Source: Candidatus Saccharimonadota bacterium
GTDB taxonomy: Bacteria; Patescibacteriota; Saccharimonadia; Saccharimonadales; Saccharimonadaceae
DNA length: 64,000 nt
Reading direction: 5' to 3'
Assembly: GCA_017431955.1 (NCBI GenBank)
Contig: JAFRKC010000002.1
Coordinates: 53,448-117,447 of the forward strand
Position numbers and translations under genes: made by a program. The notes beneath the pieces are model-generated. The model worked only from the letters and a program-made list of their open reading frames with translations, made no database searches and was not told where the DNA came from. This document shows, in pieces, positions 1,419-23,792 of this stretch; position 1 is the first letter of the stretch; each line of letters begins with the position of its first letter.

Positions 1419-3492
1419 GGCAGCGGCGCGCATTGAAAAACTGCGCGAAATTATTAACGATTACCGCTATCATTATCACGTTTTGGATGAGTCTATTATG
1501 TCCGAAGCGGCAGCGGACTCTTTGAAACACGAACTATCTCAACTTGAGGAGCAATTTCCAGAGCTCATTACTCCAGATTCTCCAACTCAGCGCGTTGCCG
1601 GAAAACCACTTGATAAGTTTCAAAAAGTTACTCACAAAGAACGAATGATTTCGCTTGCTGATGTTTTTTCGGAGCAGGAAATTGAAGATTGGATTTCCCG
1701 CAATAAAAAACTCATTCCTGGTGGCGAAATCAAAGAATTTTTCACCGATATTAAAATGGACGGCCTCGCCTGTGCCTTGATCTACAAGAATGGCATTCTG
1801 TATCAAGCTGTTACGCGTGGCGATGGGTTGGTTGGCGAGGATGTCACTCAAAATGTTAAAACGATTGAAAATATCCCACTTCGATTGCCTCAACTTCCTC
1901 TAAGCCTCGGGTCACGTCCGTCCGGCCCGTCGCCACGGGCGGACGGCGTTCCATCTCGCGTTGCCGCGCTCCGAAATCCCTCGGCTTTAGATGAAGTTGA
2001 GGTAAGGGGTGAAATCATCATTTTTAAAAAAGATTTTGAAAACTTACAGGCTCATCAACGTGAGCTCGGCGAAAAAGAATTTGCCAACCCAAGAAATCTC
2101 GCCGCCGGTACCATCCGCCAGCTCGATCCAAAAGTTGCCGCTTCGCGGCCGCTTAAATTCATCGCTTACGATCTCGTTTCGCCAGATCTCCCCACTCACT
2201 CTGAGGCTTACGAAATGCTTCGCGCACTTGGTTTCCGCACTTCAAACGAAGATCGCGTTTTTAAAGCCGAAGATAAAAAAGAACTATTCGAATACATTCA
2301 TAATCTCGATGAATATCGCAAAGGCTTGTTGTTTAACACAGACGGCATGGTTATCAAAATCAACGACCGCAAAATTTACAAAAAACTTGGCATTGTTGGT
2401 AAAACCCCGCGCGCCGCAGTTGCTTTCAAATTCCCAGCCGAAGAATCAACCACTAAAGTTAGAGACATTGTAATTTCCATTGGCCGTACTGGAGCTGCTA
2501 CGCCGGTAGCAATTTTGGATCCAGTACAAGTTGCTGGTAGCACCGTACAGCACGCCTCGCTCCACAATGCTGACGAAATTGCTCGTCTCGACGTTCGCAT
2601 TGGCGACACCGTAATCATCTACAAAGCTGGCGATATTATTCCGCAAATCAAAGAGGTTCTTACTACGCTTCGCCCAGAAAACACCAAGCCATTTAATTAT
2701 CTCGAAGCTTTAAAGTCCCAATATCCAGAGCTCGAATTTGAACGCCCAACTGGCGAAGTAGTTTACCGCGTAAAAGGCGAAACTTCCGATTTAATTTTGA
2801 AACGTTCGCTTGAATATTATGCTTCAAAACCTGCCCTAAATATCGAAGGCCTAGGCGAAAAAAATGTCAACGCGCTTGTTGACGCTGGCTTAGTTTTATC
2901 AATTGCCGATCTTTATCGTTTGAAAGAAAATAAAGTCGCAAGCCTAGAACGCTTCGCCGAACTTTCTGCCAAAAATCTTGTTGAAGCTATCGAAAAATCC
3001 AAAACCGCTCCACTCAACAAATTCATCACCGCCCTCGGCATTCGTCACGTTGGTGCCCAAACCGCCACTACCCTCGCGAATAAGTTTGGTAGTTTCGAAA
3101 AACTCGCTAGCGCCACTAAAGAAGAACTATTAGAAATCCCGGATATTGGCGAAATTGTTGCCGAATCGATTTTGGCCTACTTTGCCGACGAAGATAATTT
3201 AAAACAACTCGAAGAACTAAAAGAACTTGGTGTTGCTCCAGAATTTAACGACCTTTCCAAGGCCCCACTTGCCGGCAAAAGTTATATTATTACCGGAACT
3301 CTAGCCTCTATGGGCAGGGAAGCAGCCGAAGACAAACTCCGCGAACTTGGTGCTACCGTCACTAGTTCCGTCACTAAAACTACTACCGCCCTAATTTGTG
3401 GCGAAAAGCCAGGTAAAGGCAAAACCGACAAGGCAGCTAAATTAAATATCCCGACAATCGACGAACAAGAATTTTTGAAATTAATAGCTTAA
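1402..3492 (+). CDS. ligA: NAD-dependent DNA ligase LigA
   Basis: A 696-residue protein that seals nicks in DNA using NAD. The N-terminal Ia domain is followed by the adenylation domain with the catalytic lysine in KMDGLA (K118) and the downstream TRGDG and EVRGE motifs. An OB fold, helix-hairpin-helix repeats (around residues 500-620) and a BRCT domain (about 620-696, from [10 protein letters not shown]) complete the usual architecture. Between IPLRL (residue ~161) and EVEVRGE (~198) the protein carries about 35 extra residues, rich in S/P/R/A, in place of the usual short link. They are encoded by the palindromic element at 1888-2002. The reading frame stays open, so the enzyme is probably functional with a surface insert in the nucleotidyltransferase domain. 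The gene ends four bases into the convergent enolase gene. Confidence 0.97.
1888..2002. repeat. In-frame foldback element inside ligA
   Basis: A 115-base near-palindrome. The ends CCTCAACTTC and GAAGTTGAGG are exact inverted repeats, and the similarity continues inward (TCTAAGCC against GGCTTTAGA). The core contains CCCGTCGCCACGGG; in reverse complement this core aligns with the alaS element along most of its length (both contain cgcccgtggcgacgggccg). The right arm codes for the conserved EVEVRGE of LigA, so host coding sequence takes part in the inverted repeat. Confidence 0.85.
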
Positions 3493-21794: not shown

Positions 21795-23792
21795 ATGAAT
21801 GCAAGCGAAATCAGACAAAAATATTTAGAATTTCAAGAGAAAAAAGGACACAAAGTTATCGCTCCGGCACCTCTCGTTCTCGAAAACGACCCAACCACAC
21901 TTTTTACCGGCTCCGGCATGCAACCACTCCTTCGCTTTTTGCTCGGTGAAACACACCCGGACGGCACTCGCCTCACCGATTCCCAGCCATGTCTCCGCTT
22001 GCAAGACATCGATGATGTCGGCGATCCGCGCCACACCACCGTTTTTGAAATGCTCGGCAACTGGTCACTTGGCGATTATTTTAAAGAAGAACAAATCAGA
22101 AATTGTTTTGAATTTTTAACTAAAGAAATTGGTTTGAACCCAGAAAAAATCTACGTTACCTGCTTTATCGGTAGCGAAAAATACGGCATTCCGCGTGACG
22201 ACGAAGCAGCGAAAATCTGGCAAGAAGTCTTCAGAGATGCTGGCATCGAAGCAAAAATTGTCGAAATCGGCGACGCTAAAATCGGCGACGAACGTGGAAT
22301 TAAAGACGGCGAGCGCATCTTCTTTTACAACGATAAAGAAAACTGGTGGAGCCGTGGCGGTGGTATCGAAACTACGCCAATCGGCGACCCGTGCGGCCCA
22401 GACTCCGAAATTTTCTATGACTTCGGCGAAGACAAACAAGACGTCGAAAAATTCGGTAAGTCTCACCCTGCTTCCGACGGTGCCAGATTTATGGAAATCG
22501 GCAACCAGGTCTTTATGCAATACAAAAGAAACGAAGACGGCACTTTTTCTGAACTCGAAAAGAAAAATGTCGACTTTGGCGCCGGGCTCGAGCGCGTGGC
22601 TGCGGCCGCAATCGATAGTTTTGACGTTTTCAAAATTTCTTTGCTTTATCCAATTATCAAAAAACTCGAAGAACTTTCCGGTAAAACCTACGACAATAAT
22701 ACCGACGAAATGCGCATCATCGCCGACCATCTGCGCGGAGCTTATCTCCTTGCATCCCAAGGCCTCGCGCCATCCAACAAAGCCCAGGGTTACGCGCTCC
22801 GTCGTTTGATTCGCCGTGCGATTTTGAAGGCTCTAGATCTCGGCATCGCTCAGGATTTTATGCGCGAAACCATCTCGACTATCGAGAAAGAATATAATTC
22901 ACTCCCAGATTCAATTCTCACAAACCGTGAAAATGCGCTTTCGATTCTCGAAAAAGAAGAACACGCCTTCCGCCAAACTCTGAATAAAGGCCTAAAAGAA
23001 CTCAATAAGATGGCGAGAAAAAGCACTTTTGAGAATTTCTCTGGTTCGAGGGGATCCGGAGTGCGGCAGCACGAGGACGAGCGCGTCTCGCCCGTGGCGA
23101 CGGGCCGAGACGACGCGCCCCGAGAAACAGACGAAATTTCAAAAGGTTTATCTGGCTACGATCTCTTTAAACTCCAAGACACCTATGGCTTCCCATTCGA
23201 AATCTCCGTCGAAGAAGCCTTCCGCCAGAACATTAAATTATCCGAAAACTACAAAAAAGAATTCAAAGAAGCCCTCGAGGAACAACGAAACCGCAGTAAA
23301 ACCGCCTCAAAAGGCATGTTCAAAGGCGGGCTTGAAGATCACGGCGAACAAACCACGAAATATCACACCGCTACTCACCTGCTTCTCGCGGCTCTCCAAA
23401 AACACATCGACAGCTCAATCTGCCAAAAGGGAAGCAACATCACCGCCGATCGCTTGCGTTTCGATTTTAACCTCGATCACAAAATGACACCAGAAGAAAT
23501 CAAAACCGTTGAAGACCAAGTTAATGAATGGATAAAAGAAGATCTCAAAGTCTCCTTTGATGAATATGATAAAGACTACGCTAAAAACACCTTGAAAGCT
23601 CACGGTCAGTTCTGGGAAAAATATCCCGACAAACTCAAAGTCTATACCGTTGGTGATTTTGAAAACCCAACTTCCCGTGAAGTTTGTGGCGGCCCACACG
23701 TCGAGCATACCGGCGCGCTCGGCACGTTCAAAATCAAAAAAGAAGAATCTTCATCCGCTGGCGTCCGCCGTATCAAAGCTGTACTAGAATAA
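21795..23792 (+). CDS. alaS: Alanyl-tRNA synthetase without C-Ala domain
   Basis: A 665-residue enzyme; typical AlaRS is near 875. Class II catalytic motifs are visible (GSGMQPL, DVGDPRHTTVFEMLGNWSLGDYF, GAGLERVAAA). The editing domain has HTATH and CGGPHVEHTG zinc ligands. The sequence stops at the end of the editing domain (SSAGVRRIKAVLE), so the oligomerisation/C-Ala part is missing by design, with an ordinary stop. ATG 21795 is chosen because it lies seven bases after TATAAT (leaderless). About 35 extra residues (after STFENFSG) come from the palindrome at 23026-23145. Confidence 0.95.
   Translation: MNASEIRQKYLEFQEKKGHKVIAPAPLVLENDPTTLFTGSGMQPLLRFLLGETHPDGTRLTDSQPCLRLQDIDDVGDPRHTTVFEMLGNWSLGDYFKEEQIRNCFEFLTKEIGLNPEKIYVTCFIGSEKYGIPRDDEAAKIWQEVFRDAGIEAKIVEIGDAKIGDERGIKDGERIFFYNDKENWWSRGGGIETTPIGDPCGPDSEIFYDFGEDKQDVEKFGKSHPASDGARFMEIGNQVFMQYKRNEDGTFSELEKKNVDFGAGLERVAAAAIDSFDVFKISLLYPIIKKLEELSGKTYDNNTDEMRIIADHLRGAYLLASQGLAPSNKAQGYALRRLIRRAILKALDLGIAQDFMRETISTIEKEYNSLPDSILTNRENALSILEKEEHAFRQTLNKGLKELNKMARKSTFENFSGSRGSGVRQHEDERVSPVATGRDDAPRETDEISKGLSGYDLFKLQDTYGFPFEISVEEAFRQNIKLSENYKKEFKEALEEQRNRSKTASKGMFKGGLEDHGEQTTKYHTATHLLLAALQKHIDSSICQKGSNITADRLRFDFNLDHKMTPEEIKTVEDQVNEWIKEDLKVSFDEYDKDYAKNTLKAHGQFWEKYPDKLKVYTVGDFENPTSREVCGGPHVEHTGALGTFKIKKEESSSAGVRRIKAVLE
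23026..23145. repeat. In-frame foldback element inside alaS
   Basis: A 120-base near-palindrome with arms CTTTTGAGAATTTC-TCTG and CAGACGAAATTTCAAAAG (small indels). The core aligns with the reverse complement of the ligA element (shared cgcccgtggcgacgggccg, cgaggg, cggag, gcggca). Confidence 0.85.

Follow-up and report, generated by a model that had tools for sequence, protein, structure and literature searches.

How do long palindromes come to lie within the reading frames of essential genes, and how do they evolve there? The question is raised by a stretch of 64,000 nucleotides from a Candidatus Saccharimonadota bacterium (hereafter the window; it covers 53448-117447 on contig 1 in a 98% complete genome of 712,862 bases), in which an earlier note made from the sequence had pointed to one family of five near-palindromes lying in frame in four genes. 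The names of these genes (ligA, tatD, mnmA and alaS), as well as the names obg, tsaD, IscS, BipA, RluB and PrmC-like used here for other genes, are based on sequence motifs and should be read as presumed. We find that the inserts are dispersed repeats and not ordinary loops, that the window holds three families, to which the genus adds at least one, and that, beyond anything in the earlier note, their arms are specific to each insertion, their stems covary by Watson–Crick changes and their cores are found inverted. As the best explanation, and in our judgement a probable one, we propose dispersed hairpins that lodge in tolerant loops and evolve by template switching between their arms.

Five palindromes of three families in the window

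The whole window was scanned for gapped hairpins with Markov shuffles as the null, a gapless scan being too insensitive for bulged stems. Nine hairpins scored at least 15 and six at least 17, five of the latter being those already pointed out (Table 1); 40 shuffles together yielded 33 hairpins scoring at least 17, corresponding to 0.83 per 64 kb. With scores of 17-23, all above the shuffle expectation, the five palindromes are real, and the coordinates first given for them proved accurate to a few bases, with the scored stem running further outward in four (all but the copy in ligA).

The relations between cores were borne out. The cores in tatD and inside mnmA are 82% identical over 57 nt, the alaS core and the inverted ligA core are 80% identical over 78 nt, and alignments link both versions through a common CCCGT-loop-ACGGG hairpin. 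The repeats are thus dispersed and related as had been claimed, but they do not form a single family: the window holds family A (tatD and mnmA-internal), family A' (ligA and alaS) and family B (mnmA start). The ligA copy, matched by the A' model at G000:C1:55357-55429 (G000 being the genome of the window), is read in frame, the arms of the tatD copy are insertion-specific, and the B element sits just past the start of mnmA, where the end of an upstream cysteine desulfurase-like gene overlaps.

Table 1. Palindromic elements of the window, with positions counted from its first base
Element	Position	Strand	Host gene	Core	Hairpin score	Family match (E)
A' element in ligA	1885-2005	-	1402-3492 (+)	1910-1982, minus strand	17	A', 6e-16
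A element in tatD	15522-15671	+	15312-16139 (+)	about 15566-15624	23	A, 4e-15
B element at mnmA start	18353-18447	+	18351-19577 (+)		17 (for 18325-18476)	B, 4e-15
A element inside mnmA	18812-18963	+	between ATGHYAR and LLRAVD	18858-18910	18	A, 1e-15
A' element in alaS	23013-23156	+	21765-23792 (+)	23048-23120	20	A', 2e-12

Empty sites, recurrent loops and open frames

For comparison, 80 relatives were retained from an MnmA search, all of them Candidatus Saccharibacteria and many labelled as ruminant gut. Each of the five sites is empty in some relative of the genus, and the inserts are neither present at the same sites in all relatives nor unrelated ordinary loops, though different families do make use of shared sites. 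The locus L017, with flanks about 89-94% identical, carries neither the mnmA-internal nor the alaS insert; it also lacks the tatD insert, but in a more diverged stretch. In L016 the mnmA-internal copy is the same as in the window, the alaS insert is absent, and the mnmA start is a clean empty site, with 2 nt where the window has 98 nt. Measured as unaligned gaps against the nearest empty sites, the added length amounts to about 81 nt in tatD, 96 nt at the mnmA start, 102 nt inside mnmA and 117 nt in alaS, while the ligA motifs are separated by 36 aa in the window and by 5 aa in L137, which belongs to the same genus. At obg, the genome of the window has an A element, the genome of L016 (G060, the nearest relative found) has an A' element and G016 has none.

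Across the fetched loci, loop lengths are bimodal; at the MnmA site, for example, the loop measures 6 aa in 32 of 70 cases and 20-85 aa in 30 of 70. When TatD, MnmA and AlaRS are taken together, a hairpin scoring at least 14 is found in 65 of 70 long loops as against 1 of 110 short ones, with a mean of 1.3 of 70 after shuffling. The insert state of MnmA changed at least 14 times on a quick tree of 80 proteins from which the inserts had been cut out (59 of 80 rows scored; support under 80 for 33 of 77 inner branches; scoring by motif left 21 of 80 rows unscored at the first site and 53 of 80 at the second). Loops with recurrent insertion occur in TatD, MnmA (two sites), a cysteine desulfurase, AlaRS, BipA and RluB. 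Where loop motifs were located independently of the frame and a long loop was defined as at least 80 or 110 nt, every long loop was in frame and free of stops at the three sites considered (29/29, 27/27 and 16/16, together 72/72), the second MnmA site being excluded as frame-conditioned. In a predicted MnmA structure (38-sequence alignment; mean predicted local distance difference test score, pLDDT, of 80), the internal insert is modelled with low confidence as a loop linking two strands, and the start insert comes out as disordered.

These data leave little room for fast-evolving protein loops that are palindromic by chance, or for assembly artefacts, an explanation that we find scarcely credible. 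Some length variation exists at these sites anyway, and in AlaRS and RluB the empty sites have a mild quasi-palindromic character; however, the near-identical cores in unrelated genes already refute the chance reading, and the contrast between long and short loops is accompanied by an excess of palindromes scoring at least 17, with 180 in 1.48 Mb of unique sequence, whereas shuffling all 1.73 Mb twice gave 12 per shuffle. Against an artefact, the mnmA insert is also present in a separately named assembly (L016, Tb.RUG.198), and the A' model matches 63 of 72 genomes of the genus.

Separately, an 84-nt palindrome of no given family lies at 13249-13332 of L155, within a 23S rRNA gene (12572-14156); there, an 82-nt unaligned stretch replaces the 8-nt helix loop of L028, between flanks that are 97% identical.

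Families, copy numbers and distribution

Iterated profile searches of the fetched sample gave 28 copies of A, 43 of A' and 15 of a further family, C (one C place counted twice); for B there were 8 raw matches, with some places appearing twice because two loci cover them. The genome of the window was sampled over 451,103 bases (63%), in which 16 family copies were found at E 0.05 or better, 11 of them inside open frames, 1 at the mnmA start and 4 outside open frames. Plain hairpins scoring at least 16 numbered 58 in the same sample, compared with 17.8 in shuffles. The tatD core has further copies across the genome, several within other open frames, and the search with the cores that had been suggested at the outset thus returned related cores in many genes here as well as in the genus.

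The A' core, 73 nt long, is well conserved and contains two hairpins. Each matching genome of the genus holds up to 23 copies, whereas the A' model found no match in 47 genomes outside the genus, those listed belonging to the same order. Among 379 genomes drawn from the phylum, 10 matched, namely 4 within the genus, 2 in a second genus of its family and 4 weakly elsewhere. Of the weak matches in other Patescibacteria, L200 and L201 (other strand) share a similar hairpin motif, GGAGCGCGACGGCGCGAG, and the match in L197 falls inside an open frame of 270 aa, presumed from its motifs to be PrmC-like. Carriage by phages was considered and set aside: the exact 19-base core motif occurs in three viral contigs, but the A' profile is weak in two of them (E 0.0007 and 0.007) and absent in one, which we read as chance in what was the only viral scan made.

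Other hairpins were observed alongside these families. In the genome of the window, a further hairpin family lies outside open frames (L162 10478-10650, L173 19346-19512 and 19853-19981, L176 15067-15219), with a core like GAGTAAAAGCGTAGTGCAACCCGAGAAAAAT and arms particular to each copy; beside an A element in tsaD there seems, by eye, to be half of such a core. In L139, a B and an A' element are adjacent within one TatD loop (3376-3695), both in frame. Very long palindromes of no given family are found outside long open frames at L066 14228-14386 (score 47) and L081 3920-4070 (score 35), with near-empty sites in relatives. The window itself has another strong palindrome of 49 bases with 24-nt arms at 54554-54602, likewise of no given family.

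Paired rewriting of the stems

The stems change in pairs. Double changes occur in 15 of the 21 pairs of the A' core. Among 609 cells, both sides have changed in 74 and a single side in 1, while 9 are unpaired, as against an average of 15.7 double-changed cells in shuffles, with the pairing structure predicted from the same alignment as was used for this count. Mismatches in 134 coding palindromes comprise 206 G.U, 228 A.C and 589 others, whereas 22 tRNA genes of the same loci, used as a control, have 11 G.U and 0 A.C. Because G.U is not commoner than A.C, unlike in the tRNAs, pairing is evidently maintained at the level of DNA. This bears on the possibility that the elements are functional mRNA hairpins, such as attenuators, RNase sites or an element that is bypassed or spliced. 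The strong covariation of the A' core would suit such a role, as would the stable folding of the five copies on both strands, but the mismatch balance speaks against it, as do the occurrence of A and A' in both orientations and the lack of any Rfam family at gathering score in the five stretches. Moreover, a stretch that is removed or skipped would have no need of the open frame seen throughout all the long loops, and we consider an RNA function very unlikely.

The arms are particular to each insertion. A left arm pairs better with its own right arm than with swapped arms in three families (14.9 vs 5.3 in A', 12.6 vs 5.8 in A and 13.2 vs 6.9 in C), and a copy's own arms beat every swap in 38 of 43 A', 22 of 28 A and 8 of 15 C copies. 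Between copies, arms are 31-35% identical compared with 67-78% for the core. At two orthologous sites, in a 520-aa gene on L166 and in tsaD, the core is kept and both arms have changed (by eye); at the mnmA-internal site, the arms of the window and of L016 are nearly identical. Homogenization of arms with Watson–Crick double changes is the footprint of template switching, and from it we infer the event itself. Copies in L069 and L089 hint at nested growth at the hairpin tips.

Inverted cores

At the tatD site, the window and G060 have similar arms (by eye) with the core turned round between them: 56 of 59 nt are identical in inverted orientation, the local score is 53 inverted vs 7 direct, and the frame in G060 is open. 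Three other pairs behave alike, with scores of 71 inverted vs 18 direct (of 73) for MnmA2 in L088 and L092 (flank identity 0.86), 69 vs 14 (of 73) for TatD in L025 and L139, and 46 vs 8 (of 54) for MnmA1 in L030 and L047. At the sites scored for orientation, A is found 9 times in one and 8 times in the other, A' 14 and 17 times, and C in a single orientation at 9 of 9. Family C is open mainly in one frame, and its single orientation is what the purging of stop-introducing flips would produce.

Mobility and the origin of the arms

Several results weigh against an explanation by dispersed hairpins and template switching. No hairpin of score 14 is present in 5 of the 70 long loops. Inversions were verified in four pairs only; among pairs of the same family at the same site (flank identity at least 0.72), 52 have the same and 26 the opposite orientation, many with clearly different cores or arms, and an inverted core could also reflect an independent insertion in the opposite orientation or recombination between the arms. 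Quasi-palindromes are not a general feature of the empty sites (gene means lie at percentiles of 0.45 to 0.72), so a DNA target preference does not explain the hotspots. Derivation of the arms from host sequence found no support in a conserved-flank test for copying from the host gene (n=107, p=0.34 and 0.11) or in a test of arm nativeness (n=54, p=0.59 and 0.40), and at 30 bits 0 of 32 arms of this genome matched elsewhere within the 63% sampled, compared with 0.2 for a shuffled set. Repetitive extragenic palindromic (REP) elements are linked with RAYT (Y1) transposases, and a REP-type Y1 transposase was found in 0 of 8 genomes of the genus by a search that was positive in 6 of 14 known genomes as a control and did not cover other transposase families. 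The case for mobility rests on dispersion, since no REP-type transposase was found. A reverse transcriptase (RVT_1), with one to four matches each, is encoded in 6 of the 8 genomes (G007, G073, G078, G087, G006 and G075) and not in that of the window, and hence is not required in cis.

Dispersed gene-free repeats of about 100-160 nt, present in both orientations for A and A', could also be classical miniature inverted-repeat transposable elements (MITEs), moved by a transposase acting in trans and with the arms as their terminal inverted repeats; the long arms of family C do lie inside the insert. Terminal repeats, however, should be common to the copies, whereas it is the sequence outside the core that is least shared (31-32% in A and A'). 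Together with the negative Y1 search and the lack of a direct target duplication in four empty-site alignments, judged by eye and not systematically, this makes MITEs improbable in our view.

Alternatively, insertion might duplicate the target flank in inverted form, so that the arms would be host sequence. Single cases inspected by eye look this way (TatD in L125, the mnmA start compared with L016, and obg here), and MnmA2 in L088 and L092 scores 14 and 13, compared with 5.9 and 6.8 when flanks are swapped. As a general rule, however, inverted target duplication fails both controlled tests described above, and the mnmA-internal and 23S rRNA arms are foreign to their empty sites (by eye). We therefore reject it as a rule and retain it for single cases, with the whole remaining an unlikely account of the elements.

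Discussion

Returning to dispersed hairpins that evolve by template switching, we propose the following hypothetical course of events, in which (i) small, gene-free hairpin elements would have spread through one gut Saccharibacteria genus (Nanosyncoccus-like); (ii) in essential genes, only in-frame, stop-free copies in tolerant loops would persist, as the frame, the empty sites and the recurrent sites indicate; (iii) the insert would be translated as an extra loop, in keeping with the open frames and the predicted MnmA structure; (iv) template switching at the DNA level would copy a change from one arm into the other, and arms would be replaced as a pair; (v) the core between the arms would occasionally be turned round, this step and the preceding one accounting for the footprints described above; and (vi) new copies would probably arise when replication, or a recombinase for which no candidate enzyme was found, places a copy of a core elsewhere. 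According to this scenario, template switching would explain the upkeep and the flipping of the hairpins; that the cores also spread in this way is conjecture. We put forward, more tentatively, a wider possibility, namely a self-renewing mobile hairpin whose core spreads, while template switching gives each copy a matched stem, rewrites that stem pairwise and flips the core, with essential proteins acquiring and reshuffling loops in frame; the weak matches in other Patescibacteria would then make the class phylum-wide.

The comparison with Rickettsia palindromic elements (RPEs) drawn at the outset is apt as an analogy. RPEs are described as stem-loop repeats of 105-146 bp that form several families, occur in genic and intergenic positions, including in frame in conserved proteins, and are also found in RNA genes. 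The elements described here are alike in size (about 100-160 nt, a somewhat wider range), in forming several dispersed families, in lying in frame in housekeeping genes, as the long loops show, and in including one 23S rRNA palindrome. They differ in belonging to another phylum, are likened to RPEs by their features and not by RPE sequence, and have arms that differ per insertion, pairing kept by Watson–Crick double changes and cores found inverted. For one RPE-containing protein, the host product is described as translated with the insert and active; here, translation is suggested by the open frames and the predicted MnmA fold. RPEs lose their repeat identity with time, according to a paper on Nematomorpha, and the title of a 2002 paper calls protein-coding palindromes a unique but recurrent feature of Rickettsia.

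Other known repeats resemble the elements in part. Enterobacterial repetitive intergenic consensus (ERIC) and Yersinia palindromic (YPAL/RU-2) sequences are likewise small and gene-free, with some in-frame fusions, but are described as abundant between genes and occasionally fused, and the descriptions consulted mention neither recurrent sites in essential genes nor inverted cores. REPs share the many copies of a small palindromic repeat but are described as 20-40 bp long and extragenic. Nematomorpha mitochondria also have palindromes in coding sequence, for which template switching has been suggested; these are mitochondrial and perfect long inverted repeats, and the description consulted mentions no dispersed family built around a common core. 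In yeast, template switching is reported to produce both arm homogenization and spacer inversion in coding DNA, with changes of 2 to 5 bp, whereas the inverted cores here span about 54 to 73 nt, belong to a dispersed repeat and lie in frame in essential genes. Template switching has also been proposed to create and maintain hairpins.

In-frame palindromes in essential genes are known above all from Rickettsia and Wolbachia, with some ERIC and Yersinia fusions. No such family was known for Saccharibacteria to the earlier note, and likewise none appeared among the papers listed by searches of open-licence literature (Saccharibacteria, Candidate Phyla Radiation, Patescibacteria). Our study adds several families of this kind from a different phylum of ultra-small symbionts, in which related species carry the whole core inverted with the frame preserved. 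What is new is how the hairpin evolves, through paired rewriting of its stems, copy-specific arms and inverted cores. The elements thereby link selfish palindromes to template switching and may serve as a natural record of hairpin matching and loop gain in essential proteins.

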